In this document: piece by piece, positions 1,085-43,540 of the stretch | Layout of the letters: each line of letters starts with the position of its first letter | How positions within the stretch are numbered: position 1 is the first letter of the stretch | From: Fomitopsis serialis | Lineage: Eukaryota > Basidiomycota > Agaricomycetes > Polyporales > Fomitopsidaceae | Direction of reading: 5' to 3' | Assembly (NCBI RefSeq): GCF_022376445.1 | Contig: NW_025954983.1 | Location: 62,001 to 126,000, forward strand | Length of the DNA: 64,000 nucleotides | Notes under the pieces: generated by a model | The model's database searches: none | The model's input: only the letters and a program-made list of their open reading frames with translations | What the model was told of the DNA's origin: nothing | Program-made: the position numbers and the translations under genes

Positions 1085-1170
1085 CAGTCAGCCAGTACGT
1101 TCGAAGTCAGCAAGTTCGCCGGTCAGTCAGTACGTTCGAAGTCAGTCAGTCAGTTCGCCAGTACGTTCGC
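1085..1170. repeat. Short tandem repeat at the LINE 3' end
   Basis: Imperfect tandem units built from GTCAGTCAGT and ACGTTCGAAGTC or CAGTTCGCC fill this stretch. It sits where the LINE tail is expected, so it may be a tandem-repeat tail used instead of poly(A). It is also read through by the end of the ORF2 frame (stop at 1146), so the last residues of that frame are unlikely to be real protein. Confidence 0.6.
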
Positions 1171-3939
1171 CAGCTCGTAGTAGCCCCGAGAGGCTCTACA
1201 CTTCTTCTCCTGCCGTCGCTCGCCTTCCTTGTCGCCGCTCGTTCGACACGTTTGTCGAAACTCTCCCTCCTACCTTCGAGGCTTAGCCCTCGTCTTCGAA
1301 CAGTCTTCGATATCTTCGAAGCTCTCCCACGTCGTTCGGAGTCTTGTCCGTCCTCCTCCTTCTTACCTAGACCACTGTACAGTCCCCCGTACATCTCATA
1401 GACGCAGAGGCCTCGCATACCACTGCTCGACCTCACGGTTGGGTTTTTGTGTGGCTTTTGTGTTCTTTTCGGTCGCGTCACCGGTGGGTTAGCCTTATGG
1501 AAGGTTTGCGGTCGAGCCATCGAGGCGTCCTGACGCGCTTTCTCCAGGGTTTGCCACTCATCCTCTCCGGTTATTCTGCCAAAGGTGGTGGGTGCGCATC
1601 TCCGGCGGAGGTGGTTAATAAACGGCCTCAGGTATTTCGCAAGGGGGGCGCCGATCCAGCCCTTCTCCTCCCACAGCGGTGTCTTGTCGAAAATTAGTGT
1701 GGGCAACACGCTGTCCGTGCTCAGGAAATTTAGTGGTGCGTCCAGAGGTGTTCGCTCGGCAGCACACATTGCAGCCAAAAGGGCCCCCGGCTCGGTCACG
1801 TCGGTATTCGGGTCTGCAGTCGGGGTGACCAGTATGTTCCGCTCGTCATTGGGGCCGAAATAGGCCGCATAGGTGCTCCGGTCGGCGCGGGAGACAGGGT
1901 CCGGCGCATCAGGGTTCTCTGTGGGCCGGAAAAGCATCACCGTTGTGGACTCCTCCGGGACTGCGATTCCGGGGCGTCGCCTGATCGCCGGGGGTTCTGT
2001 GAGAGTACTTGGGTGGACGAAGACACGGAAGGTCTCCGATATGCCCCCTCTGGACGTGACCGACGGGTTGAATACGAGTACATCGCCTTTGTCCAAGGCC
2101 GCTTCTTCATTTCGCTCCATTCGTCGCCTAGTCAGGGTAAGCCCGTCTGTGACGTCCGGGATCAGGGGGTTCCACTTAGGTAGGATTTCGCTAAGGATTC
2201 GGAAGGCTGCAAGCCTGCAAGTAGCGGGGTGAGTGCATCCTTTTTGCCGGGAGGACTGGCATTCTGGACAGGCGCAGTCATTGTCCTCCCACTCCGTATA
2301 TCGTGTGGTAGGCTGGTCCCCGCAGGTCGACCGGGTAGCCTCAAGTAAGTCCGAGATTACTATCACTCCGTGGGTCTCCCGTAGACAATCGCTAATTTTT
2401 GTGTTATTTATTCTACGGAGTGCTTTGGTCGCACCGATGTGGTACCAAGCCGGCAGTTCCCTCTTTAGGGACGTGTCAACCTTTATTGCTTCAAGGTGTA
2501 CACCTAAGCGTTTCCCCGCACTCAACATTCGCCGTATGTATAGTGGTAGGCCGGAGCGTGCGCTCAACGACGGGTCCCAGCTCTGCAGGTAAGTGTTTAT
2601 TTGCGCCTTTGGCCTGATTACTCCAGTATCCTTCTTTGCGTGCTTATTAATAATAGCGTCCATAGCGAAAGCCCAGACAGGTCTGTCATTCGTCAGGGTT
2701 AGGTAACGTTTTACCCACATTAGATCGATTGCATCGTTTCGTGCCTCTATATCCAGCAGGCCTAAGCCCCCCTCACGGACCGGGCGGTACAAGGTGGCCG
2801 TATTAACTGGTGGTATTCCCTCCGAGTTCCATATAAATGTGCGTATAATCTTCTTCAGTTCTGCTTCGACTGATTTTGGCATACCCTGAACTACCGCAAG
2901 GTACTGAGAGATTCCTCCTGGGCCCATCTGAATGATGTGTCTTTGTCCTATCATTGAGGGTCTGCATTGTCCCCATCGCTTCAGGAATTGTCTGATTTTC
3001 GTGAGTGCCGGGGTCCACACTGCAGTCTGTTCTACATTGTTTCCGATCCAGGCGCCTAGGATTCGGACTGGTTCGCCCTCCGTGGCTACATGCACGTTCA
3101 GGGGAATGGTCCCTGACGAGACCAGGTCAGGGTTCAGTCGGCGTGTGGAGACTACGGACTGTCTGTATTCAGGTGAGCCCACCGGTACTACCTCGGTCTT
3201 CCCGTCATTGAATTTGGCTCTTGAAGCCATGCACCAGCGGCTCAGGATATCCCATAGGTCGGTCCAGCTATCGTGTTTCGATAGGAAGGTGGACGTATCG
3301 TCCGCAAATAGCTTCGTAATCAGTCTATCGGCCGCACCTGGGATTTGGAAGCCTTTTAGGCTGGAGGTGCGTAGCAAAATTGCTAGTGGCTCGATTGCTA
3401 TGTCGAATAATAGGCATGAGAGAGGGTCGCCCTGTCTCACTCCTCGTACGACGTCGAAGAACGCACTGGTCTCTCCGTTCACTATGACTCTCGTTTTCGC
3501 CGTCGAGTATAGCTCGCGGACTTTCTTAATGAAACTCGCAGGTAGGCCAAAAGCTTCCAAGGTCTTCCACAGGTACGCATGATCTATCTTGTCATATGCT
3601 TTTTCTTGGTCTAAGGCGACTATAATACCATCTTCTTCGGTAGCTTCAGCATAGTCGACCAGGACTCGGCAGGTCTGTGTTTGGTCCTCAATATGACGTC
3701 CCGGCACGAAGCCCGCCTGGTCAGGGTGTATGAGCTTGGTTGCGACCTCTCCCAGCCTCGACGTCAGGGCTCGGGTGTAGACTTTGTAGTCTGAGTTCAG
3801 GAGCGTAATAGGTCTGTAGTTCGCAATTTCCCGTCTATCACCTTTCTGTTAAGTAGTCAAGGCTATTGAAGGCCTCTCCTTCCGTGCTGTCACTCATAAG
3901 GGACTTCCAAAACTCGTACGGGATCCCATCCAGGCCCGG
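1146..3939 (-). pseudogene. LINE ORF2, 3' part: reverse transcriptase, Cys/His motif, RNase H-like
   Basis: Continues the ORF2 interrupted at 10206. Next to the insertion the frame reads LDGIPYEFWKSL, the conserved N-terminal RT motif. An apparent deletion with a +1 shift follows near 3850, where roughly 30 residues normally found in this family are missing. From about 3830 the frame is open through IANYRPITLLN, DQAGFVPGRH, LDQEKAYDKIDH and the catalytic box FADD (about 3305). A CACPEC..GC..HPATC cysteine/histidine motif lies at about 2228-2287. An RNase H-like region (about 1890-1545, including WEEKGWIGAPL) follows. The protein would copy its RNA at a nicked chromosomal target. This copy cannot do so: it is separated from its endonuclease and lacks part of the fingers region. 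Confidence 0.88.
3935..3939. repeat. Target-site duplication of the LTR element, left copy (CCCGG)
   Basis: CCCGG directly precedes the TGT terminus at 3940 and recurs at 10206-10210 directly after the ACA terminus. Removing 3940-10205 plus one copy rejoins the LINE reading frame exactly at the GRAPG/LDG motif, which confirms both ends. Confidence 0.93.
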
Positions 3940-4140
3940 TGTGAGGCGCCTTACTCGTCGTGCCTCGTATGCGCTGCACCCAGTCTCTATTCAAGAGGTA
4001 CTGTCTACAGATTGCATACAAAGGCGGTGACGAGGTAAAGGCTGAGGACTCGTAGGTGCACTGGCGCGCCATACGAGTCCTCGAGCAAACAAAGACAAAC
4101 ATATAAGGTAAGACATACCGTAACGGGAATATCCGTTACA
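3940..4140 (-). repeat. 3' LTR, 201 bp (left copy on + strand)
   Basis: Identical to 10005-10205. It begins TGT and ends ACA on either strand. It contains an inverted repeat with 11-bp perfect arms (GAGGACTCGTA at 4044-4054 and its complement at 4072-4082) around a loop holding the palindrome TGGCGCGCCA. A second stem (GTAACGG arms) lies at the other LTR edge, about 4120-4139. In element sense a TTATATG stretch (about 4100-4106) could serve as a TATA-like promoter. Confidence 0.93.
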
Positions 4141-4149
4141 CCCTCCCCC
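4141..4149 (-). promoter_or_regulatory. Polypurine tract (plus-strand primer)
   Basis: In element sense GGGGGAGGG directly precedes the TGTAACGG start of the 3' LTR. Purine runs in this position prime second-strand DNA synthesis in LTR retroelements. Its presence fixes the element's orientation as minus. Confidence 0.85.
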
Positions 4150-4366
4150 ACTGGACACGACCACGGGTCCCAGTGATAACCAGAGAAACAGAGAGAAAAA
4201 GGAAAGAAAGGAAACATATACGCAACAACCCAACGGTGGTAGCGACAAGACAAAGGTGATGTCGAACTGTAGACAGCGACAAGCTACTTCGCGTCAGTGA
4301 GCAGACATGACCGTTCACCATTGTCATACACAACTTGACCAAGTTGTGCAACCGTCATGTAGACTA

Positions 4367-7300
4367 CTACTCGGATTCTGAGTAGTAGTCTGCATCTTCG
4401 GAGTTACCCTCATCTTCAGCAGATAGTGCAGAAGAACTATAGGTATCCTCCATCTCGGACTGCTCATAGTAGTCAGAGACTACTACTGAGTTTGTCCCCT
4501 CAGAACCTGGATCCGAAGAATCCCACGAGCTATGATGCTCAGACTCGGAGAGATACTCTGACTCAACATGGTCAGAGTAATCCTCGCGAGTTGTGGTACG
4601 GGGCTCCTCATCAGAGGAGTTGTACCAGTCGGAGTCATCCTGAGGTCGACTGCGAGGTGGTACAACAAACCATCCCAGCTTGTTGTAGGCCCAATGTCGC
4701 ACCATCTCCATAGGAAGTGGTGCAATGAGTCGAGGGTCGAACTCGAGTGGAACCACTTCCAGCTCCCTCTGGAAGTGGTCCCATGCTCGACGAGCTGCAC
4801 GAGAATATGTCCTCGGTCGCGGGGACATCTCCTCGATGGCATGCCCACAGCTAAGTGCTGACCTCTTGCAGTGAGCCCAAATGTCCCACTCGCCAGCACT
4901 CGCCGCAAACTCAGCCTCGTCGAGGTCGAGGTCAAGTTGGTCTGCAAGGAGGGTGAAGCACTCCTCACGCAGCACCTTGTCCATGGGCCATTGACTCACG
5001 TCAACAGTCACTGGCTGATTCGGTGCAGTCGGTACTCGGTTCAATGCTGGTACGTCGCGGCGCGAGGTACTAGCTTCCCGAGTAAGGTCATGGCTGCGAC
5101 GGTCACCTGTATTCTGTACGTCGAGTCGATCGCTCGACACACGTGGTACAGGTGGTACCTGTCTCGATGTTCGACGTGAAGCTCGTACATCGAGCTCAAC
5201 GCTGGATGTACGGCCCGTGACTGCGTCCGATCCCAGTACAACACTATGTGATGTACTGGCCACTCGTGAAGTGTACTGCACATTGAGTCCCTGGCTCGAT
5301 GTGCGAGTAGCTGACCTTCGTGTCGAGTCCCCATGGATAGCCTGTACGTCAAGCTCACGGCTTGGCGTCCATATCACTGCCGGATCCGAGGCCAGTACAT
5401 CTCGGTGTGATGTACTGGTGGTGGTGTGGAACAAGCGGTGGCCGCTTGAGGCCCCGCTCCCTTCCCCTCTCAGGAGGGTGTCCCCCCTCGTGGCGGAGGT
5501 AGCTCCTCCCTGTGCTGAGTCCAATGAGTCCAGCCCTCGCGCTGGCTGTTCCTTCTTACGGGCGCGCGACGACGCCCTGGTCGTCGCGTCATTCGATGCG
5601 GGCACATCACCCAGTAAGCCGGATGCACCCGCCACACCACACGGTCCAGGTAATTGTACCCGCGAGGACGAGGATTCGTCCTCGTCAATGGTCCCTTGCC
5701 CTGGAACTACCGACGTGACCTCGTCAGTCCCCGTCCCTTCATTTGACTGCGCTGGGTCCGGGGAAGAAGGCAGCACATCCGTCTTGGATGTGCTCGGCAG
5801 CAGGTACTGGTCTTGTTTGCTGAATGTGTCAAGTACCTCGCGGTACTTGGCGTGGTGTTCGTCGCCGTAATCCGCGGCCAGTCCACGTCGGTCTTCGAGG
5901 TGCTGCCCGTGGGCGCGACGTGCTGGTAGCACGTAGCGTCCCGTCGGTCGCCATTCGTTCTCGGGTGCAGCCTGTCGTACGTCTACCATGGTAGACGTCT
6001 CGGTCGACTGCTCGCGATCTACCGACTGGGGCTCATCCGCTTTCCCATCCTGACGTTCGTTCACGACGATTGAATGTTTCGTCCCAGCGCGACACGGCGG
6101 TGGCACTGCAACCAAAGAAGATGAGTTGGCGAGTACCTCATGGTACTCGCCCTTGGCAGTCGGACAATCATGTCCGTCTGCCGTATGCTCTGAGTGCGAA
6201 TCCAGTGGGTGTGCGAGTTCCCTGAGGTACTCGCACTCCTCCTTAAGAGGATGTTCAGCAGCACCTACATCGAGCATAGAGCTCGATGGCAGTGCCGCAC
6301 CAGTCGTGACGAGGCGGGGCGAGTCGGTAGTGCATGTAGTATGCGTTCCGAACGCACCGCCATGCATGGCTGCTGATGCGACTACGCTGTCGCTTTGTGA
6401 TGTGGGCGGACCACCGTCGATTGCGACGACCTTCCGGGTGGTCGCGATCGACGCTGGTAGTAGTACAGTAGGTGATGGTGGCGGGGCGAGTACCGCGAGG
6501 TACTCGCCGTCCGAGTCGCCGCCGAACTCCTTAGCATAGACGTCGGTCGAGAGGCCCGACGTCTGTGCATGAGTCGTGACCGTGTTGGATACATCGGATG
6601 AGCTCGCTCGCTCGCCGATCGTACCGCGTTGCCTGGCTGTGCCAGGTGCGACCTGTAGGTCGCCTCCTGGGTCATCCGTGCCCTCGTCGTACGTGGTGGC
6701 TGCCACGACAACCGCATTGGTTGTCGTGGTCGTCACAGATGGTGGTAGGGGGGCCGGAGATGGTGGTAGGGGCGAATTAGGTACGCCTAAAGGAGACGTA
6801 CCTGTCGTCGAGCTATCCCGCTCGACTCGTTCGTCCTCTGTGCTTGCCCTGCACCCTTCCCCCTCTCCTCCGTCTACCGGAATCTTCCCGTCTGCCTCTC
6901 CTGCCTCCACGACCTCATCGACGTCTCCCTCATCCCCGTCCTGATCCTTCGTTCGTCCTGCGCGCGACCTCCGGGGTGTGCTCGCGGTCTCCGACTCGAT
7001 GGGCCTGTCGTAGTCGCCATGGGTGTCGGGGGCCGCGGGGAGGTCGATAGGATGTTGGGTGGGGTCCCCTAGGAGTGAGCCCTCGCCGAGAACTGTGAAG
7101 TTCTCGTCGGGTTGACGGTCGGGACACCGTTCTGGCGTGTCGGGGTCCGTAAGCGCCGGCTGCTGCACTAACGGTAGTGCAGCAATCAAGTCGCGATCTC
7201 GAGCTCGCGCATTCGTTGGGAATACGCGAGCTTCGATCTGCGCGCTCGCCGGGGCGCCGGGGTCGCGAGTAGGGGGGTAGTGGTGGCTGGAGAGGTCGAG

Positions 7301-9865
7301 GTTGAGGTCGAGATCGTTCGTAGGACCCGCCAGTTGAACCGCGTACGGTTCAGCTGCGCACGAGCGATTGCTCGGCCGCACGTCCGTCGGGGCGATGCGG
7401 CAGTCCTGCACCGAGTTGAAGCGCAATGGGTTGCTGCTCTGAATGTGAGCGAGGTCCGCAGCTTCGTCCAGCCGGTCGAGGTCGTCTCGCGGGCTTGCCA
7501 GCTGAACCGCGACCAGCTGAGCTTTCTCGAAGAGACCAGAGGCTTGCACTTCCGACAGGAAGTGCAAGTCTTCTTGAATGGTGTTCGCGCGCGGCTGGTG
7601 GCTGCTGGAGGTGTCGAAGTCGGAATCGTCCATGGAGTCTAGCAGTTGAACCGCGCGCGGTTCGGCTGCGCATGGACGGTCGCTCTGTCGCACGTCCGTT
7701 GGGGCGATACGTGCGTCCTGGGTCGCATGCGTGACGGTTCGGCAGCCTTCTGCGTCGACGTCGTGACCAGGCGATTGGCGGTCGTAGACGAGTTCGTCCG
7801 GGGAATCTGCCAGTTGAACCGTGGATGGTTCAGCTGCGCACTGAGGGTCGCTCGCCAGAAAACTTGCGGGATCGAGCGCGTTGCGGGAGAGATCGTCGGG
7901 GTCGCTCCATGGCTCGGCCAGCTGAACCAAGGGAGGTTCAGCTGTGCTGACACTGTCGGAGGCCTGCACTTCTGCAAGGACGTGCAGTCCTTCTTGATGC
8001 GCCGCTGGTCGCGCAGTATGGCTACCCGACGAGTTGTCAGTATCATGCGGCGGATGGTGATCACGAACGCCGTGTACGTCGAGCGACGAGCTAGACGTAC
8101 ACGCTGCATCGCATGCAGTCGAGGTCCAATTGGGCACGTTGGGCATGCATCGCGGCATGTCCATCGTGCCGCCTCGCGAATTGAAGGGTGTGCTCTCTTG
8201 AAGAGCGGGCTCGACCCCGGACAAGAAGGATGTCGAGATGGGTACGTCCATCAGGGGCGTACCTTCAGTTCTCGACCCTTCGTGCTGGTCGGTAGCGTGT
8301 ACGTCGAGCATCAAGCTCGGCGTACTCGCTCTCCATGGATCGGTGATGGACAAATGGGACACGTTGGACGTGCACTGCTGCGCGTCCACTGTGTCGCTTT
8401 GCGAGATGGACGGTACGACTGCGAGGTCGTCCCGTAGCACAGTCGTGCTATCTTGCGGAGCGGAAGGTACGACTTCGCAGTCGTACCTGGTTCCGTGACC
8501 AGCGGTACGCTCGACGAACTCCGTGTTCATCGATACGCACGCTGGCGGGGGTACTGGCACAGGCGGAGGCGAGGTGGGTACGTCCAGCATGGGCGTACCT
8601 TCGACTTGCGAGTCTTCCTGCTCGCTTTCCCTGCTCGCCCCGCACCCTTCCTCCCTCTCTCCCTTCGTGCCTTCCTCGCACCCTTCTCGTTCCTTCGGGA
8701 TTTCCTCGCCGCCTCCACGATCCGCGTTCCTCGTGGTCCGCTCGGTCTTGCAGCTCGGCGCTGGGCTTGAACGCGCAGTGTTCAAGTCCTGGGTCGCGCG
8801 GCTGGGTTGCGTGTCGCCAGAGCCGCGGTATTGGTTGCCAGAGTCAAGACGCGAGTCGAGAGGGGTGAGGTGAGGAGCCGGGGAGGGAGGAATTGGCGAT
8901 CTGGTACCGTGAGGTACCAGGTCGTCGGTCGCCACTGACTGGACTGGCGGTAGGTCAGCCAGCCATTCGCGAACGCGAGTTCGCACTCGCGTTGGGGCCG
9001 CGCGCGTGTCTGGTTCGCCAGACGGGCGCTCGAGGTGGCTGCCCAGAGAGTGGTAGTGGTCGAGGACGTGGAGTCGGTGGTGGCGGTCGAGTGCAGTGCG
9101 GTGAGCGCTAGCACTCAGGGCGCTCGCCACGGACCCGTGACGCTCGACGCCCGTAGGGTCGAGCGCGTCGCGCGTCGCGTCGAGCAAGTTGCTCGACATG
9201 GCGCGCACGTCATTCGACAACGAATATATATTTTTTGTGTCGCGGCTCATCTCTGAACACGCGACGAGCGTATCTACACGCGTGGGCTCGTTCCCACTGC
9301 ACACAGTACTACTGTAGTACTGTGTGCCTATGCCCTCCCGGGTGCTGATGCGAGTCAGCTCCTGGTGCTGCTCGTTCAATCCAGGCACGAGCTCGACTAC
9401 GGCTACGTTGTCGAGCTCGGCGCGCTCACCACTCCTCAGAGTGGTGCCGAGCTTCATCGGCTGGGTCGAAGCAGGTGGAGAGTCGGTCTCCGGGCGGTTT
9501 TGAGCGGGCTCGACATTGGGCTCGAGCCGCTCAGTGCGCGGTGCCTGTTCGACCTCACGGTCGGACGGCGCCTGCTCTGTGAGGGCTCCGGCTGAGTCCT
9601 CGCGGTGAGAGGACTCAGTCCGGGTGGTCTTCGTGCGAGAAGACCGACTGCGGCTGCTGGCCTCGGACAGAGCGGCGTCGACCGTTGCCAGCAGTTCGGC
9701 CTCGAGTTGCTTGGATTCCTCGAGGGCTTTGTTGATCCGCTCTTGACTTGCGGCGAGCTTTGCTCGGACTTCCGCACGCAACGCCTTCAGCTTGCTGCGG
9801 GTTCCACTGTGGGACCCGCGGCTGCCTCGCGAAGGTGCGGACGGGGTGTTGGTCGACTCGGACAT
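4367..9865 (-). CDS. Giant orphan protein of the LTR element (1,832 aa)
   Basis: A single uninterrupted frame. I start at the ATG at 9865 (context AAGATGTCC); the frame is open 12 codons further up but without another ATG. Residues about 20-75 are Arg/Lys/Glu/Ala-rich and likely helical or coiled-coil. The middle about 1,300 residues are low-complexity and rich in Asp, Ser, Thr and Pro, with recurring short motifs: AEPxxVQL, LDV or SSxxLDV, EYxxVLA, LHFLxEVQAS. The last about 200 residues include a more ordered stretch (FTLLADQLDLDLDEAEF, RRAWDHFQRELEVVPL, RHWAYNKLGWFVVPP) and a very acidic Ser/Glu/Asp tail. I recognise no family and see no CCHC knuckle, DTG/DSG protease, RT or integrase. It could be a diverged Gag-like protein, or the coding potential may be secondary to RNA structure. 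Confidence 0.85.
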   Translation of the reverse strand: MSESTNTPSAPSRGSRGSHSGTRSKLKALRAEVRAKLAASQERINKALEESKQLEAELLATVDAALSEASSRSRSSRTKTTRTESSHREDSAGALTEQAPSDREVEQAPRTERLEPNVEPAQNRPETDSPPASTQPMKLGTTLRSGERAELDNVAVVELVPGLNEQHQELTRISTREGIGTQYYSSTVCSGNEPTRVDTLVACSEMSRDTKNIYSLSNDVRAMSSNLLDATRDALDPTGVERHGSVASALSASAHRTALDRHHRLHVLDHYHSLGSHLERPSGEPDTRAAPTRVRTRVREWLADLPPVQSVATDDLVPHGTRSPIPPSPAPHLTPLDSRLDSGNQYRGSGDTQPSRATQDLNTARSSPAPSCKTERTTRNADRGGGEEIPKEREGCEEGTKGEREEGCGASRESEQEDSQVEGTPMLDVPTSPPPVPVPPPACVSMNTEFVERTAGHGTRYDCEVVPSAPQDSTTVLRDDLAVVPSISQSDTVDAQQCTSNVSHLSITDPWRASTPSLMLDVHATDQHEGSRTEGTPLMDVPISTSFLSGVEPALQESTPFNSRGGTMDMPRCMPNVPNWTSTACDAACTSSSSLDVHGVRDHHPPHDTDNSSGSHTARPAAHQEGLHVLAEVQASDSVSTAEPPLVQLAEPWSDPDDLSRNALDPASFLASDPQCAAEPSTVQLADSPDELVYDRQSPGHDVDAEGCRTVTHATQDARIAPTDVRQSDRPCAAEPRAVQLLDSMDDSDFDTSSSHQPRANTIQEDLHFLSEVQASGLFEKAQLVAVQLASPRDDLDRLDEAADLAHIQSSNPLRFNSVQDCRIAPTDVRPSNRSCAAEPYAVQLAGPTNDLDLNLDLSSHHYPPTRDPGAPASAQIEARVFPTNARARDRDLIAALPLVQQPALTDPDTPERCPDRQPDENFTVLGEGSLLGDPTQHPIDLPAAPDTHGDYDRPIESETASTPRRSRAGRTKDQDGDEGDVDEVVEAGEADGKIPVDGGEGEGCRASTEDERVERDSSTTGTSPLGVPNSPLPPSPAPLPPSVTTTTTNAVVVAATTYDEGTDDPGGDLQVAPGTARQRGTIGERASSSDVSNTVTTHAQTSGLSTDVYAKEFGGDSDGEYLAVLAPPPSPTVLLPASIATTRKVVAIDGGPPTSQSDSVVASAAMHGGAFGTHTTCTTDSPRLVTTGAALPSSSMLDVGAAEHPLKEECEYLRELAHPLDSHSEHTADGHDCPTAKGEYHEVLANSSSLVAVPPPCRAGTKHSIVVNERQDGKADEPQSVDREQSTETSTMVDVRQAAPENEWRPTGRYVLPARRAHGQHLEDRRGLAADYGDEHHAKYREVLDTFSKQDQYLLPSTSKTDVLPSSPDPAQSNEGTGTDEVTSVVPGQGTIDEDESSSSRVQLPGPCGVAGASGLLGDVPASNDATTRASSRARKKEQPARGLDSLDSAQGGATSATRGDTLLRGEGSGASSGHRLFHTTTSTSHRDVLASDPAVIWTPSRELDVQAIHGDSTRRSATRTSSQGLNVQYTSRVASTSHSVVLGSDAVTGRTSSVELDVRASRRTSRQVPPVPRVSSDRLDVQNTGDRRSHDLTREASTSRRDVPALNRVPTAPNQPVTVDVSQWPMDKVLREECFTLLADQLDLDLDEAEFAASAGEWDIWAHCKRSALSCGHAIEEMSPRPRTYSRAARRAWDHFQRELEVVPLEFDPRLIAPLPMEMVRHWAYNKLGWFVVPPRSRPQDDSDWYNSSDEEPRTTTREDYSDHVESEYLSESEHHSSWDSSDPGSEGTNSVVVSDYYEQSEMEDTYSSSALSAEDEGNSEDADYYSESE
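5830..6508 (-). repeat. Hairpin family A: GAGTACC arms encoding EYxxVLA-type motifs
   Basis: Four stem-loops share the scaffold CGAGTACC - four-base loop - GGTACTCG: 5830-5849, 6128-6151, 6211-6236 and 6485-6508. The loops on the + strand are TCGC, TCAT, CTGA and GCGA. The outer pairs differ between copies but stay complementary: A-T replaces G-C at 5830-5849, and T-A replaces G-C at 6211-6236, which also has one unpaired position. In element sense they encode KYREVL, EYHEVLA, EYLRELA and EYLAVLA. Confidence 0.85.
7331..7944 (-). repeat. Hairpin family B: GCTGAACC arms encoding AEPxxVQL repeats
   Basis: Stem-loops at 7335-7352, 7648-7663 (a 16-nt perfect palindrome), 7811-7836 and 7919-7944 share arms of the form CAGCTGAACC/GGTTCAGCTG and encode AEPYAVQL, AEPRAVQL, AEPSTVQL and AEPPLVQL. 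The unit near 7500-7524 has lost the pairing and reads QLVAVQL. Spacing between units is about 110-320 bp. The protein repeat and the RNA stem coincide exactly. Confidence 0.82.
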
Positions 9866-9980
9866 CTTGTCGAGTTGTCGAGTTGGCCAGAGGATGATCA
9901 AAGTAGCATAGAGTTTGTTGATGTCAAATTTCGAGGTTCGAGAGTTTGTTGCCTAGAGTAGATAGTCCCCAGAGAGATAG

Positions 9981-10004
9981 AAGCTTTTCTGGAGCGCAAA
10001 AAAG
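9981..10004 (-). other. Expected primer-binding-site region of the LTR element
   Basis: In element sense the bases just after the 5' LTR read CTTTTTTGCGCTCCAGAAAA. Most LTR elements have TGG here, complementary to a tRNA 3' CCA end; none is present within the first bases. The element may use an internal tRNA fragment or self-priming. I cannot decide from sequence alone. Confidence 0.4.
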
Positions 10005-10205
10005 TGTGAGGCGCCTTACTCGTCGTGCCTCGTATGCGCTGCACCCAGTCTCTATTCAAGAGGTACTGTCTACAGATTGCATACAAAGGCGGTGACGAGG
10101 TAAAGGCTGAGGACTCGTAGGTGCACTGGCGCGCCATACGAGTCCTCGAGCAAACAAAGACAAACATATAAGGTAAGACATACCGTAACGGGAATATCCG
10201 TTACA
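10005..10205 (-). repeat. 5' LTR, 201 bp (right copy on + strand)
   Basis: Identical in every base I compared to 3940-4140. In element orientation this is the upstream LTR that should hold the promoter. The large inverted repeat recurs at 10109-10147. Confidence 0.93.
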
Positions 10206-10210
10206 CCCGG
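10206..10210. repeat. Target-site duplication, right copy (CCCGG)
   Basis: Matches 3935-3939 and lies directly outside the ACA terminus. Confidence 0.93.
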
Positions 10211-11902
10211 TGCGCGTCCAGATTGTGATTTCTTGAGCGCTCTTTTGACCTCATCTTTATAGATTCCGGTTTGCAGGACGGTTAGATCCCCACCGTCTAG
10301 TGTCTGTCTAACCCCGGCCAGGATCCGCCTAATTTCCGCGGCTTGAAGGTCCGCTGAGAAGCCAGGTATGTCGACAGACTGAGCGCGCTCGTGGTAGTCC
10401 CTTGCTAGTTTCGCCATTTTGTTAGACCTGTTCACAAATTGTGGTGGGGTCGTTTCTGGAATCCGTAGGTTGTATATGATATCTCTCGGCTTCTTCTCGC
10501 GGTTGACTTCCGACCAGTATTTCGTCACCCGCTCGGCATTAAGGACGTATCTTGCGGTGGTCGTGAGCTTTGAGAGAGCGTGTCGCTTCTTTTCAAGGTC
10601 GCAAATTCGGTTATGGAGGACGGCCGAGTCGTTTTGTAGCTCGCTCGATGATTGGTATGTGTTCCGGCTTTCTATCTCTTGAACATGGTCGCGTAGTCTC
10701 TTCAGTTCGGTCTGCAATCTCGGGGATTTCTTTTTTAAGTGTTCTCTAGCGCGTTTCCGGACTTCCTCCTTGAACAGTCGATGAAGCCGTTGGATGGGTG
10801 AGCTGTGTAGGGCTGCTTCGTTGTTGCAGGCTGTCCTCATTTCCTTCATCACGCTTTTGCCTAGGGTCCTCATCTCATCCATGAATTCGTTATCCTCAAT
10901 AAGATGTGTAGGCATCGACCATCTACCCTTGCCTATGAAGGGGGTGTTAGCGGTGTTGAGTTTGGTGCTGATGAGCCGGTGGTCTGTTTGTACAGCCGTG
11001 GTCTTGATGTCCCATGTATGCGAGGTGCGGACTAGGGATTCCGCCGCACATATGCGGTCAATTCTAGAACGCGATACGCTGCCTCGTTGCGGATATGAGT
11101 AGTCTTTCTTGTTCGGTTCTGATAGTCTCCACCCATTGTATAGGTCAAAGTACCTGATGAGGTCTCTTAAGGCGTCGACCGCGGGTGCGTAGTCTTCTTT
11201 TGCTGGCAGCCTGTCAATGGCTTCCTCGACCAGGTTGAAGTCTCCGGTCATGACGTCAGGTTTGTTGAACCGGTCTTTCTCAGCCATGCTTAGAAGGCGA
11301 CGCCAAAAAGCTGCATTATCAGTCATTGAGTTAGGGGCATATACATTGAGGATCGTGATCGATCGCTCGGCGTGCCAGTGCATGGTCAGGGTTACCGCCC
11401 GGCCAGGAATTATTTCCTTGAAGACGACATTCGAAATGTCGACTATCTCTCGGTTTAGGACTACTGCCACCCCTTGGGAGGATGTCGTGGACTCTGAGCC
11501 CGAGTTCCAAATCCGGATTCGTCTCCCATAGAGACTCTGTATCGTATTTATGTGTGTTTCATCCAGGTGCGTCTCTTGGAGGCAGAGGACGCCCAGTTTC
11601 TCCTCTCGGAGGAGCTGGTTCACGGCATTCCATTTCTGGTCTCTAGGGCCGTTCAGGGAACCTCTACCGTTGAGGTTGAGGCTTCCGATATGTAGACTAG
11701 CTTTCGTCTTTTTCCCGGACGGGACAATTCGTCCCGCCCGTACGGGATGCTCTACTATCGGAGCATCCCTTCCAGGGTTGTTCGGTACTCGGCTCTCTGT
11801 GTTTCCCTGGGCACTGTTGGTCGGTGTGCACATACCACTGAGAGCAGCCCCGTCGCTGGGTTCCTCTACCCGGTCATTGATTTCAGCGCGGGCGGGGGAC
11901 AC
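10206..11902 (-). pseudogene. LINE ORF2, 5' part: endonuclease and start of RT
   Basis: Encodes an exonuclease-endonuclease-phosphatase (APE-type) domain. Motifs in order: LHIGSLNLNG (about 11700), LCLQETHLDE (about 11590), GDFNLVEEAIDRLP (about 11240), SRIDRICA (about 11060) and the catalytic TDHRLIS (about 10990). A helical linker with RARxHLKKKS and LRDHVQEIE follows, then LKKSQSGRAPG, where the frame is cut by the LTR element; it reads through into the LTR for about 50 foreign residues. The frame is open from 11902, but the first ATG is at 11833. The enzyme would nick target DNA to prime reverse transcription. Confidence 0.9.
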
Positions 11903-38205: not shown

Positions 38206-41200
38206 GGACAGTGCCTGCCTGCGGTTCTTCGGTCAAAACATTTCATCCCAGAACGTCCGGACACCTTATTGTCGGCGACCTTGTGGAACGGTCGTGTTGT
38301 TCTCGGTGGCACGGCCGTTTCCATGGCGGTTCTTGTGTACGTTGGTACGTTAGGACGGAACCGTGGGGACATTCTGGAATTGTTATCACGACAGGCTGAG
38401 GCCGTGTCAGTAGTACGACCGTTAGCCAGAAGCTGAACATATTACTACCGCCCGGAGTCACCGATAAAAGTCCTTGTAATTGCAACATACGTATACCCTG
38501 ACTTATGCAACATTTGTAACATACAGTGTACTTTTTTTTTTTTTTTGATTCCTTTTATTGTCCGCGAGGGCCTAGCCCTATGTAGACAAGACTCTGGCTC
38601 TACGAGTAAGTACGGGTATGTTCTATAAGGATCAGGCTGAGCATGAGCTCATCGCCGAAGCGAGAGCTTGAGGTTGTAAAATAGGAGAGTGGAGTGGAGT
38701 GGGGTGTCGAGGCAGTGACCGTAGCAGTAGTGTGTATGTACAGTAGCAGAAGACGCGGGCGCAATGAGATCGGCGGGGTTGGGTCTATATACGAGTTGAG
38801 TCTATGTATGAAGGAAGTGGACTCCCGCCCGGGAGACGACACGCGTTCGATATGGCTAACAGACTGGACGAGCGGTCTGGCTCAAAGCGGGGCGCGAACG
38901 AGGTATACAGTGTACTATAGCCTGTACATGCATGTCTAGATATGGGGATTCTCGGAATGTGTGGTTTGGATGTCTTAGTTACTCAGCGATTCGAACTCGG
39001 CTCAGCGCGATCAGTGATAGACCGCACCCGATGAGATCTGAGTATGTTTGTGACGAGTGCGGAGGCGCCTGAGCCTCGCCTGAGCGCTAAGCCTGCATCG
39101 GACTCCTCCTCCTCCTCCTCGTCGATATCGCTCTACAATCGCTTGCTCGTACTTCTGTTACTTACCGAATGTCAATCAGACTGAACCATCGATGTTCAAT
39201 GGCTAACAAGCTTTGCACATGGCATATGCATCTCTCGGGATATCATCGCATGAAGGAAGCACGATGGCGATTCTGACTCCGAGTCAGTCTTGTACGACCT
39301 GACTCAAAGCTTCCTTGCTTTGCAGAGGTACGTGTTCCACTATAGTGCATCCAATACCTACCGACTACTTGCGCCAGCGATTCGTACTGCCTCATGTTAC
39401 AAGATTGCCCTCATCATTCAAGCGTTCGCCTAAGCAATGTCTGTATAACCGCGAAGTTGAGCCACAACTCAGAGAAGAATGGACAGGCTCAGCATCTGTG
39501 CTCACTACTGCTTTTTCATGTAAGGAAGTGACTTGTTCTTCAGACGCACGTCGCAGGCTGTGTTCGAGTCAATAGAGACCTTTCGGGAAGCCATCGCCAT
39601 ATCCGTAGAACAATGGTCACTAGCCTAGGATGCGCTCAGCGCTGGCAGTGCGGCATAAACAAGCAGCCTGGACGTGGCGCCTCAGAGTATGTTCTTCTGA
39701 AATGCAGAGTACTTCAGTTGCAGAACAAAGGTCCGCACTTTGCGGATTGGGTGGGTTGGACCGCACGGTGCCGCAAGTCGGAGTCGATGCGGTGAACAGT
39801 CGTCGTGCTAGTGGCGCAGTTTCTGTACCACAGGAATGCAAGCGTGTGTAGAGGATGTCGTTCTCGGGTGCGCCGACCATTTGCTAGTGTTCCGCGAAGT
39901 GATACGAAGCAGCGAAGGAAACAGTCGCCATACGGAGTAAGCATAACGCCCACTGCGTTGCTCGTTGTAAATGACGTATCTGCCGTTACATAGATGTCAA
40001 GGAGTCGCATTGGAAACTCTACTCTTGCTTACGCGAACATGCTGTATCTGGGTTCAGTCACTGTGAGCCGCGTGCCGCAGGCCGAGAAGCCTTTTTACGG
40101 CCCCATCCCCTTTTCGTTCTCCCGGTATGACCTCACGAAGAACTCATGTCGGCGCGGTATCTCTTCAATTTCAAACAGGGAACTGCGCATGTGTATCTCG
40201 ATTCTGCCCTCGCAATGGCGATGCATCACTTGCAATTGGATTCATATAATCGCTTTCACCGTGCAGAAAACGTGAAGGACATTTAACTCACGATGCCTTC
40301 GTTTTTAGGAGCTAGATGCTGAAAAATCTCCATGTTCCGGTCGAAATACATGTAACGTACTTCCTTTGAGGTCGGGTCCACGACGTAAGTATGCACTGCA
40401 TGCCGGCTTGTAGTTGTTCCTTATACATTGACCTCATGATGATCTCAACCGCATCTCGTTAGGTGAGTGAGTTGTGCTCTGCTTCCTTGCCCTCCTGATG
40501 ACCGGTTCTTCTCACGGCAGGCAGTGTACCCCTCAGCCAACTGGGCTCAATGGCGGGTCGGGGTCAATCTCGCCAGATGCTTCCCTGGGCTGAGGCCGAA
40601 GCATAGCCTGACGCTGATACGCCCGTCCCCGGCGCAACATGCATGAAGCCGCCGGCCTCAAACCATACCTTTCGGACTTTCTTGGGCGGTGGTATCATTG
40701 CCGCGCCATGCGTCATGGGTATGTAGAATGCGAAGATCGGATACCTTGAAGGGATCTGCAAGGCCTTACGGGCTGAATTTTCTTCAGGAGTCGACCAGAA
40801 CATTCTGCTGTGCGAATGCACAGCAGAACATGCCTTTCCATCACGGTAAGACATCTACACTGTGCACTCTTGGCTTGATATACTGAACTGATGAACCTTA
40901 GCACAGTACTGATGCCATTCTCTGGCTCACTTGATGTTGAAGCAAGGACTGTCCTCGTATCAGCGATATCATGTGAACATCACGAGGAACTATCTGCAAC
41001 TCGCATTTACACATGAGAGCACAGCTGCAGGCTGTCGTACTCTGTATCCACGACCTTGGCTTGGGACATCGCCATAGCTCACCGAATACCCGTCACATTC
41101 CGATTTTTTGCCTATGGCATCACCGCGATACGTTCTATCTCCGTCTTACGCAGTGACATTCCGGATCCTTCCATAGATCGTCGACCCTGCTGCAAATCGC

Positions 41201-43540
41201 GTGTAAGTAGCTGCGATCCTAGTACAGCTCAATAATTCATCCTGCACGCGTCATTTCGCTCGGCCCGCGATAGAGTCGTATCTCGGACAATACGCTAATG
41301 GGCATGCCGTTCACCGACGTGTCGGTGAGAGCCATGTAGTAATAAATATGTGACCGCCGGAGGCGAGGACATTCTGACGTGCATCATTTCTCCCGGCACA
41401 GCTTCTGCCCTTGCCAGTGAACGCGATTCCACGCGGTCATATCCGACACCTAATGGATCGTCGTACACGCATCGGGTGTTCACTACTTAGTAACAGGATA
41501 AATGATCTACTGTACTTGTCTCGAACGAGGCACCGACTCACGTAGAAGTACGAAGCACCGCATGCCTTCAAGCTATAGACACGTTCTTTCCGTTTTTGGA
41601 TGATACATCCCGTGCTGGTCCCTACACGGAGAAGCAAGTTTCACTCGATGTCAGCAATGGCGATGCATGAACCCGAGAGAAACGTGTCTCAACCACGGAC
41701 GGCGCCGAACAGAGCTTCCATAGGCGTAGCGACTCATTGATATCTTGCCGGCGCAGTGGCGCGCGCTCTTGAAGCGATGCCGTAGACGTCCGAGAAGGCC
41801 ACGGGCTCTCTGAATGCTTGCAGACCCTGAGACCTGAGTAATTCCTCGCCGCTGTGCGAAACTGAAATCCCAGCCTTGAAGGCTACGCGGACCAAGCCCA
41901 AGGCCAAAGCGAGAGAATCGTTTAGTACACAGGCTTCGACCGTGGCACACAGCCTTTGGCCTCGAAGCGTACGGTTCCAAACTTCTATCTAGGCATTATC
42001 CGTGAGCTTGTCCATTCTCGCTGACTCCGTGCTCTAGCGTAGATAGTGCAACACGCACATGACCTACACTGTAGCACTATTCAACCTAGATCCCGCGATT
42101 CATGACTCTACCTCAAGCTAAGTTATCTGTAACGCAACCACAGCAGAAGCACCGAAGACTGATCCACAGTACGTTCAAGCGGCCCGGATCCGGATATTGT
42201 AGCCCTGCGCGACGACTGTAGGCTTCCAAGTACCTGATTAGCCAATGACGACGAGGCATGGAAGCAGAACGGAATGATCCCGGAGTGGGCATCCTCGATC
42301 GAGGGGCCCTACGCATCCTAATCTGATCCGTTACCTGCTCGTGCGATGGCCTATATGGGTGGAAATGGGCGTGCGGTGCTCGTGTCTGGCAGACACGAGT
42401 ATCTCGTCGTCCAGGGCAGGTTCCAGCTGGGAGCGTCGAGTCGTCGCCGAGAACGTAGCCCAGAGATCATCTCCGGCGGCCTGGTGTATGTAGGCAGGAG
42501 TCGTGTATTCCCTGGCAGTTGCAGCACTGCAAGTGGCGATCCGACATTCGTGCGTGGAACGCACGCCTCGGATGCATCTAGAACCAGTCCGGGATGACGA
42601 GGTGTTGCATAGACAGAATCTCTTGGGCCATGGCGCGTGTCGTCGGGCGGGTATTTTGGTGCTATGGCGCACAGACGGTATATATCGCGCGGTGTGCACG
42701 TTGCTCACGCTGTAATGCTGATCTTTGCACTGACCTGAGATGAACAATCGTGCAGGGAGTACGCGAGATGCATATTTGCCTGCCAGTGCTGCGCCGGGAC
42801 GGGGACTTACCGTGAGCTTGCGCGCGAGTCGGGCCATCTGGCGCGGCGCACGCGGTGAACAGCAGGCACCGGTGGGTGAATGCTGCCCACTGCGCATAAC
42901 TAAGGCCATACGACAGCGATGTGAGCCTGTGTAATCTGCGCCGAGCATGCTATGTCTAAGTGTACAGTGCACAGGGGGCGCAGCTGTTCTTAGTTGAAGC
43001 TGTTAAACGTTAATTGCCGAATTCGGCGAGGCTGTGCGGTTAATGGATCGTGGGCGGCTATCGGCTACGTCGCCACAGTTGCAGGCTTGGGACGAGCGGC
43101 GAGAGACCGTTGGTGCCGCAATTGCTTGGCGCACTACATAACACACAGCCTGCATTCGCATGCTTCCGACGCTCCTTTTCCCCTCAGGACGCTCCCTTCT
43201 TCTCCATCTCAGCATCCCCCAGTTTCACGAACCTTTTGTGTCTATACTCGCTTTGTTCGACGGAGGCTGTGAGCGCTCGAGTACAGCCCGCGCAGTCGAA
43301 CCGTATCCTCATAAAGGCCGCTTTGACAGGTACCTGGGTCAGGACACATATCACAGCCTCTCACAGAGCGTCCAGAAGCCTGCGGTATTATTCAGGTGCG
43401 CATCACGCGCAGAACCTTCACGGAACAACGATTTGAACCACACAATCCAGACAGTAGTGCAACAGATCTCGAGGCACTGCAAGCACTCACAAGTGTCAAC
43501 TCGACATCTTTTGCGTCCCGTATAAATCGGTCCGTCCACG
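38206..43540. other. Gene-poor region
   Basis: About 5.3 kb with no gene I can support. It contains a 15-T run (38532-38546), a TCC-triplet run (about 39104-39119), and scattered short frames with no family features. A minus frame near 40564-40854 has a protein-like stretch (YPIFAFYIPMTHGAAMIPP) that could be a pseudogene fragment. A minus frame at 42331-42972 is long (213 codons) but Arg/Ser/His-biased like a shadow frame. Old, decayed repeats are likely. Confidence 0.45.

Follow-up and report, generated by a model that had tools for sequence, protein, structure and literature searches.

A hairpin-rich coding sequence in a candidate non-autonomous LTR retrotransposon of Fomitopsis serialis

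The element and its inverted repeats

The window analyzed in this study is a stretch of 64,000 nucleotides from the fungus Fomitopsis serialis (contig NW_025954983.1, positions 62,001 to 126,000), whose genome assembly comprises 66 Mb in 806 contigs. Between positions 3940 and 10205 of the window lies a long terminal repeat (LTR) retrotransposon, for which a preliminary description of this DNA had given accurate limits. Its single long open reading frame (ORF; 4367..9865, minus strand, 1832 amino acids) contains short perfect inverted repeats far in excess of shuffled sequence, and comparison of family copies indicates that these stems are maintained. We tentatively propose, with considerable reservation, that the element is non-autonomous and that its coding sequence doubles as an array of hairpins which would be strand-symmetric, selected and subject to turnover.

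The element is delimited by two LTRs of 201 bp with TG...CA ends. In ORF sense these are the 3' LTR at 3940..4140 and the 5' LTR at 10005..10205 (both minus strand); they are identical in sequence and share a few further bases beyond these 201 (repeat D1 of the repeat list). The target-site duplication CCCGG was read off the sequence on the left (3935..3939) and on the right (10206..10210). Two near-identical LTRs with such ends and a short target-site duplication are what is expected of an LTR retrotransposon, and matching flanks were also found for other copies, for example L033 and L037, with duplications scored for part of the copies and some other flanks mismatching at the printed positions. 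A polypurine-tract-like run, CCAGTGGGGGAGGG, adjoins the 3' LTR at 4141..4154 (minus strand). Across copies either GTGGGGGAGGG or GTGGGGGAGAG is found next to the LTR, with one G less in L038 and L039. Since the purine run adjoins the LTR on the same strand, the minus strand was taken as genomic sense. The transfer RNA (tRNA) primer site gives no confirmation: the 5' leader (9866..10004, minus strand) continues directly after the LTR with CTTTTTTGCGCTCC, and inspection by eye found no TGG start of a tRNA-type primer site there. The purine run falls within a stretch of about 43 bases inside 4141-4190 which is near-identical in copies whose 3' end was seen, although their LTRs and ORFs differ. 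This stretch exceeds the length required of a polypurine tract, and its 19-base core occurs 35 times in the genome as exact matches.

Stems were counted if perfect, non-overlapping and closed by a loop of 3-10 bases. With the minimum stem length set to 7, 8, 9, 10, 11 and 12 bp, the ORF contains 34, 27, 17, 11, four and one of them, respectively. Thus the count of about 17 long stems in the preliminary description is reproduced by the stems of at least 9 bp. Its stem across the stop codon is present as well, with 12 bp and a 7-nt loop at 4361..4391 (I13 of the inverted-repeat list); being cut by the ORF end, it comes in addition to the ORF counts. The limits assigned to the feature, 4329..9618, need to be revised, since the ORF reaches 9865 and position 9618 is the end of the outermost hairpin.

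Chance and base composition were rejected as the cause on the basis of three types of shuffle and of the remaining window sequence. In 200 synonymous-codon shuffles, stems of at least 7, 8, 9 and 10 bp reached means of 4.3, 1.8, 0.6 and 0.24 (maxima 11, 6, 3 and 2). For stems of at least 9 bp, both 200 codon-order shuffles and 100 dinucleotide shuffles of the ORF gave a mean of 0.21 and a maximum of 2. Similar counts in codon-preserving shuffles, or an equal density in host genes of equal GC, had been named beforehand as results that would undermine the observation; the codon shuffles gave far lower counts, and the remainder of the window is not as dense in stems. At positions 11903-64000 (52,098 bases), 13 stems reach 7 bp versus 22.9 expected, and two reach 9 bp versus 1.45 (20 dinucleotide shuffles), so that this sequence has, if anything, short stems below the chance number. 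Its two longer stems sit at 40803-40828 and 42379-42399. A cause at the protein level, namely a repeated peptide that forces palindromes, was likewise rejected, because synonymous shuffles lose the stems and because, within stems, the third codon position is as well conserved as the other two.

On both sides of the LTR element, minus-strand ORFs of a LINE-like element (long interspersed nuclear element) are found, which the LTR element interrupts by its insertion. A Pfam search assigned RVT_1 (E 5e-20) to the ORF at 1146-3707 and Exo_endo_phos (E 5e-11) to the one at 10070-11902. In the segment 1146-3707, two stems reach 7 bp (0.78 expected) and none reaches 9 bp; in the segment 10209-11902, the counts are two (0.54 expected) and one (0.05 expected), respectively.

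The stems had been described as a property of the coding region, which holds for the 17 in the ORF, but the element's non-coding parts (771 bases in LTR, leader and 3' region) also harbor three stems of at least 7 bp versus 0.24 expected. Among these is an 8-bp stem with a loop of 4, read off the sequence just 3' of the stop codon (4329..4348). The hairpin property may thus extend past the ORF ends. Furthermore, the LTR carries its own perfect stem of 11 bp (4044-4082 and the counterpart in the other LTR), whose 17-base loop lies outside the counting limit. A search of Rfam across 3900-10300 returned no matches up to E = 1. Within the ORF, a unit of about 50 bases with hairpin-like arms occurs five times at 7306-7943 (D3), spaced by 108-168 bases in multiples of 3. 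Segment duplication is thus one source of hairpin number.

Maintenance and turnover across copies

In total, 39 copies were examined (38 fetched and the window's own), of which 21 matched both ORF ends at the right length and were aligned. Most comparisons employ 13 of these, after L012, L016, L031, L032, L038, L039, L040 and L045 were dropped as at most 2.3% from a kept copy; L036 and L037 were both kept though 0.3% apart, and the 13 thus represent about 12. In each of the 21 aligned full-length copies, 11-20 stems reach a length of 9 bp and 23-38 a length of 7 bp. The analysis also covered 11 more distant or partial ORFs. In ten of them, the number of stems of at least 9 bp (3 to 11) is higher than in any of 100 codon shuffles, the exception being L015 with a single stem (shuffle mean 0.07, maximum 2).

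If all 13 copies are taken as reference in turn, divergence amounts to 7.1-7.3% in stems, 23.1% in loops and 19.0-20.4% in the 15-base flanks, while outside the hairpins it is 11.5-27.4% (three of the 13 copies compared to the others). With the window copy as reference, codon positions 1, 2 and 3 differ at rates of 8.8, 7.2 and 6.7% in stems versus 18.3, 19.2 and 23.5% outside. Judged from these alignments, what is constrained in the stems is the nucleic acid rather than the protein. At the true register, 903 of 32,047 cells show changes on both sides of a pair, and 677 of these (75%) are complementary; if partners are shifted by 1-3 bases (six registers), the complementary share is 14-40%. 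Swapped column pairs number 55 distinct ones in 40 hairpin clusters, compared to 18-28 in the slid controls by the same count. Furthermore, 7-15 of the window copy's alignable stems (23-27) are perfect in each of the 12 other copies, where the background predicts 0.1-0.8. Across the aligned copies the stems are, on this evidence, maintained.

Maintenance goes along with turnover. Among 78 hairpin clusters (stems of at least 7 bp, 13 copies), 12 occur in a single copy and five in all 13, while the number per copy remains between 23 and 38. Of the 27 stems in the window copy that reach 8 bp, two are perfect over their full length in every one of the 13 aligned copies, and seven in the window copy alone, though some of the latter exist in shorter form in relatives. 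In the following, the fraction is that of aligned copies, window copy included, with a full-length perfect stem. The two general ones are 8-bp stems at 4467..4485 (loop 3; 13/13) and 7087..7106 (loop 4; 13/13). A 13-bp stem at 9299..9327 (loop 3) is perfect in 10/13 and a 9-bp stem at 5663..5684 (loop 4) in 8/13, with more than one Watson-Crick type at one of its pairs. Three stems are perfect in seven copies each, namely those at 5392..5418 (10 bp, loop 7; 7/11), 6128..6151 (10 bp, loop 4; 7/10) and 8972..8993 (9 bp, loop 4; 7/13). In the stem at 5772..5794 (9 bp, loop 5; 6/11), as in the one at 8465..8488 (10 bp, loop 4; 3/13), two pairs vary between Watson-Crick types. Intermediate values were obtained at 9592..9618 (10 bp, loop 7; 5/13), 5565..5588 (9 bp, loop 6; 4/10), 6703..6729 (11 bp, loop 5; 4/13), 7919..7944 (10 bp, loop 6; 3/13; one of the five D3 units) and 6485..6508 (10 bp, loop 4; 2/12). 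Among the stems perfect in the window copy only are those at 4554..4579 (9 bp, loop 8; 1/13), 6538..6564 (9 bp, loop 9; 1/10), 7161..7184 (10 bp, loop 4; 1/13) and 7543..7568 (11 bp, loop 4; 1/13). The 11-bp stem at 4752..4779 (loop 6) has its full length in 1/13 as well, while a stem of 10-13 bp is present at this place in 13/13.

Five protein relatives of the ORF product were found, four annotated in Fomitopsis serialis and one in Rhodofomes roseus; a second protein search added P0007, a further R. roseus relative. The R. roseus protein P0005 carries an N-terminal extension (residues 1-398) ahead of the part matching P0001. From residue 399 on, it displays 18 four-codon runs of mirrored complementary residues versus 6.9 in local shuffles, a number reached by 0 of 300, and the same test gave 17 versus 6.3 for the window protein. 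The unrelated first 398 residues of P0005, used as control, yielded 3 versus 0.8 (reached by 13 of 300 shuffles), and P0006 showed no clear excess (6 versus 4.2, reached by 71 of 300). Mirrored residues at the protein level are thus a weak indication that the R. roseus relative may share the hairpin property, as the test is a weak one: many matches are Ser/Arg/Thr runs, and one codon phase is covered.

Within the F. serialis genome, an 862-base piece of the element was found at identities from 100% down to 72% among the 40 of 70 candidates scored. The LTRs of L009 and L011 are 98% identical to those of the window, yet the 5' parts of their ORFs only 78% and 74%, a mismatch that suggests recombination between branches of the family. 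The relative L048 (C643:3600-13500) is 6.7 kb long and has fragmented ORFs and 11 stems of at least 9 bp. Its flanks resemble the halves of what we take to be a helicase-like gene.

Mutational origin, strand and mode of action

If the hairpins were a functionless mutational by-product, template switching during reverse transcription or replication might make and repair such quasi-palindromes. In line with this, loops of aligned hairpins were inverted in five cases (four of GCGA/TCGC and one of GTGA/TCAC) versus 0.34 expected, and loops and mismatches are strand-symmetric. Moreover, RNA hairpins made by this mechanism have been described, including loop inversions and an enrichment of 4-base loops (PMC8794818). 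However, the majority of the five belong to families of similar units, which renders their orthology uncertain. Neutral conversion between arms should turn a mutation into a pair change as often as erase it, and pairs would then change at the background rate. In contrast, swapped pairs amount to 0-5% in hairpins perfect in both copies versus mostly 18-27% for the background, and in three closer pairs of copies to 0-0.6% versus 11.5-14.7%. This argument presumes a near-neutral background. Among the eight copies with an intact ORF (1657-1835 codons), the ratio of nonsynonymous to synonymous substitution rates (dN/dS) is 0.34 for the closest of the 28 pairs and 0.53-0.70 for the other 27, which speaks for mild constraint on the ORF outside the stems. 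Further points against a neutral origin are that 43 of 55 swaps are transitions, that the adjoining LINE segments lack a comparable stem excess, and that a nearby inverted copy explained 0 of 158 cluster tests (79 clusters in both directions, 11 overlapping close copy pairs), a test run without positive control. Neutral template switching as sole cause is rejected by the few pair swaps and the absent recent footprint; together with the low stem divergence, they make this option of the preliminary description decidedly unlikely in its neutral form. The loop inversions remain as evidence that template-switch events occurred, with orthology uncertain for most of them.

The stems could also act as classical structure of the coding-strand genomic RNA, comparable to the genome-scale ordered RNA structure (GORS) of RNA viruses. 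As in GORS, the folding energy of the coding region lies below that of codon-preserving shuffles, by 13-18 standard deviations in 4/4 copies tested (z -13 to -18; 15 codon shuffles each). Compensatory changes fit as well, as do short loops and C-G closing pairs. Four-base loops occur in 24.4 of 59 hairpin clusters (41%) versus 18% of chance hairpins. Among closing pairs, 5'-C/G-3' has a share of 0.58 and the reverse one of 0.09 (chance hairpins: 0.42 and 0.33; observed stems of at least 8 bp were here compared to chance stems of at least 7 bp). However, the opposite strand lies about equally far below its own shuffles (z -10.6 to -17.9).

RNA stems under selection usually tolerate G-U pairs. 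Such tolerance, like a preference for GNRA-type loops, would mark selection on the RNA strand, and neither mark was found. Uncompensated changes that create G-T on the coding strand, and thus G-U in its RNA, occur at 0.40 of background (37 versus 91.8 expected), hardly different from those creating A-C (0.47; 46 versus 97.6), while uncompensated transversions occur at 0.29 (32 versus 112.3). Of 63 four-base loops, 15 are GNRA and 12 are reverse complements of GNRA. In addition, 94 distinct stems of at least 9 bp contain one A-C, compared to 41 that contain one G-T. The preliminary description had raised a genomic-RNA fold for packaging or protein binding as an option. What stands of it is that pairing in the stems is preserved, compensatory changes occur, loops are short and C-G pairs close them; selection specific to the coding-strand RNA is not seen, and we regard this classical explanation as unlikely.

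This surplus of A-C in long stems of the coding strand reads as G-T or G-U on the other strand and is a weak hint that the hairpins may work there, either in first-strand complementary DNA (cDNA) or in an antisense transcript. However, the ORF strand has a skewed base composition, which by itself yields a ratio of about 1.5 (1.4-1.55 to 1 in codon shuffles), and the polarised rates of 0.47 and 0.40 are nearly equal. Thus, action in the opposite strand alone appears quite unlikely. The strand-symmetric signature rather suggests that the structure counts in both strands, or in DNA.

Strand symmetry would also be expected if sense and antisense transcripts paired locally with themselves, formed fewer sense-antisense duplexes and thereby escaped RNA silencing. 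Turnover with a stable total is compatible with such an escape, but hairpins may equally feed Dicer, for which a role as bait or protection had been raised in the preliminary description, and we hold the escape from silencing to be very unlikely. Palindromes might, as another possibility, be double-stranded binding sites of a dimeric protein. Stems share short words in support of this, with GTAC 4.6-fold enriched in arms over its level in the complete ORF, and they have a loose core, ACC-N4-GGT, in common. In contrast, spacer length ranges from 3 to 10 and differs even between aligned hairpins, and stem sequences are widely different, which makes dimer sites the most improbable of the explanations considered. 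With an excess of four-base loops and of C-G closing pairs, spacers that vary and loops as the fastest-evolving part, the hairpins look like folding rather than duplex-DNA binding.

Coding capacity, proposed function and known systems

The ORF gave no Pfam matches up to E 0.1. A genome-wide profile search (105 of 105 RVT_2 and 150 of 153 rve candidates scored) returned 104 matches of RVT_2 and at least 109 of rve; comparison by eye placed no listed RVT_2 or rve site inside a family copy, with RVT_1 not searched genome-wide. An autonomous partner that shares the same ends was not found by eye either, the family copies on C44, C97 and C469 being known as pattern matches only. The polymerase could come in trans from the RVT_2- and rve-bearing elements elsewhere in the genome. 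For the conserved C-terminal 141 residues, a structure prediction reached a pLDDT of only 42 and was left unused as unreliable.

The proposed non-autonomous element would thus use one long ORF for two roles: it would encode a fast-evolving, mostly low-complexity protein and, at the same time, provide an array of some 25-40 short hairpins, whose arms purifying selection would keep paired. These hairpins may locally fold the single strands of the element, both genomic RNA and cDNA, with condensation or packaging as the most likely benefit. They might be read by the protein that the element encodes or by a helper Gag. If many equivalent hairpins were read in this way, the total would outweigh any single position. 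A more specific version is, in our view, rather doubtful: the coding sequence would be overlaid by a distributed, position-tolerant hairpin code, with some 25-40 perfect, strand-symmetric stems per copy that act in single-stranded DNA or in both strands and serve as scaffold for packing replication intermediates.

Several observations weigh against a selected hairpin array. The distant branch of L023, L028 and L030 is poorer, with 3-5 stems of at least 9 bp (0.18-0.34 expected), and repeated segments supply part of the hairpin number. One of the slid registers reaches 40% complementary changes. Copies are related and may recombine, so that counted events are partly non-independent, L036 and L037 being only 0.3% apart. 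The closest pairs show a mild reduction of changes in stems (16 of 3705 versus 294 of 39801 sites, ratio 0.58); a ratio above that of deep comparisons (about 0.35) is, however, expected if selection purges stem changes over time. RNA structure under selection usually shows a G-U preference, which is missing here. Finally, nucleic-acid binding by the ORF protein is unsupported, given the lack of a recognised domain and the pLDDT of the conserved part.

Among non-autonomous LTR elements, large retrotransposon derivatives (LARDs) possess a long internal region without coding capacity, and terminal-repeat retrotransposons with GAG domain (TR-GAG) encode a Gag protein. Both resemble the element presented here in their LTRs, target-site duplication and polypurine tract and in that no reverse transcriptase or integrase is found. 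Unlike them, it has a conserved ORF of 1832 codons without known domain that is full of maintained hairpins. With eight intact ORFs its internal region is not non-coding as in LARDs, and the comparison with TR-GAG meets an ORF without Pfam match and a C-terminal model of low confidence.

To our knowledge, no dense array of perfect hairpins of this kind is known in retrotransposons. Among the open-licence papers listed on hairpin-rich retrotransposon ORFs, F. serialis, LARDs and Ty1/Ty3 RNA structure, none describes one by title or abstract opening. Genomic RNA of Ty1 and Ty3 is alike in being LTR-retroelement RNA with folded regions within coding sequence, whereas the passages of PMC11381356 considered mention no array of short perfect hairpins. 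Hairpins made in RNA by template switching share 4-base loops and loop inversions with those described here (PMC8794818), but swaps are too few and stems too conserved in this element for a neutral origin, and no recent footprint was found in the close copy pairs. Since one genome holds dozens of family copies at graded divergence, models for the origin and persistence of hairpins, such as point compensation, template switching and duplication, become separable within a single sequence family.

Selected structure over coding regions is well known in RNA viruses. GORS of persistent RNA viruses is alike in that structure extends throughout the coding sequence with folding energies far below those of shuffles. 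In contrast to GORS, the fungal retroelement displays discrete perfect hairpins without G-U or GNRA strand bias, and this absent bias raises the less usual possibility that selection acts on the folding of cDNA and not of RNA alone.

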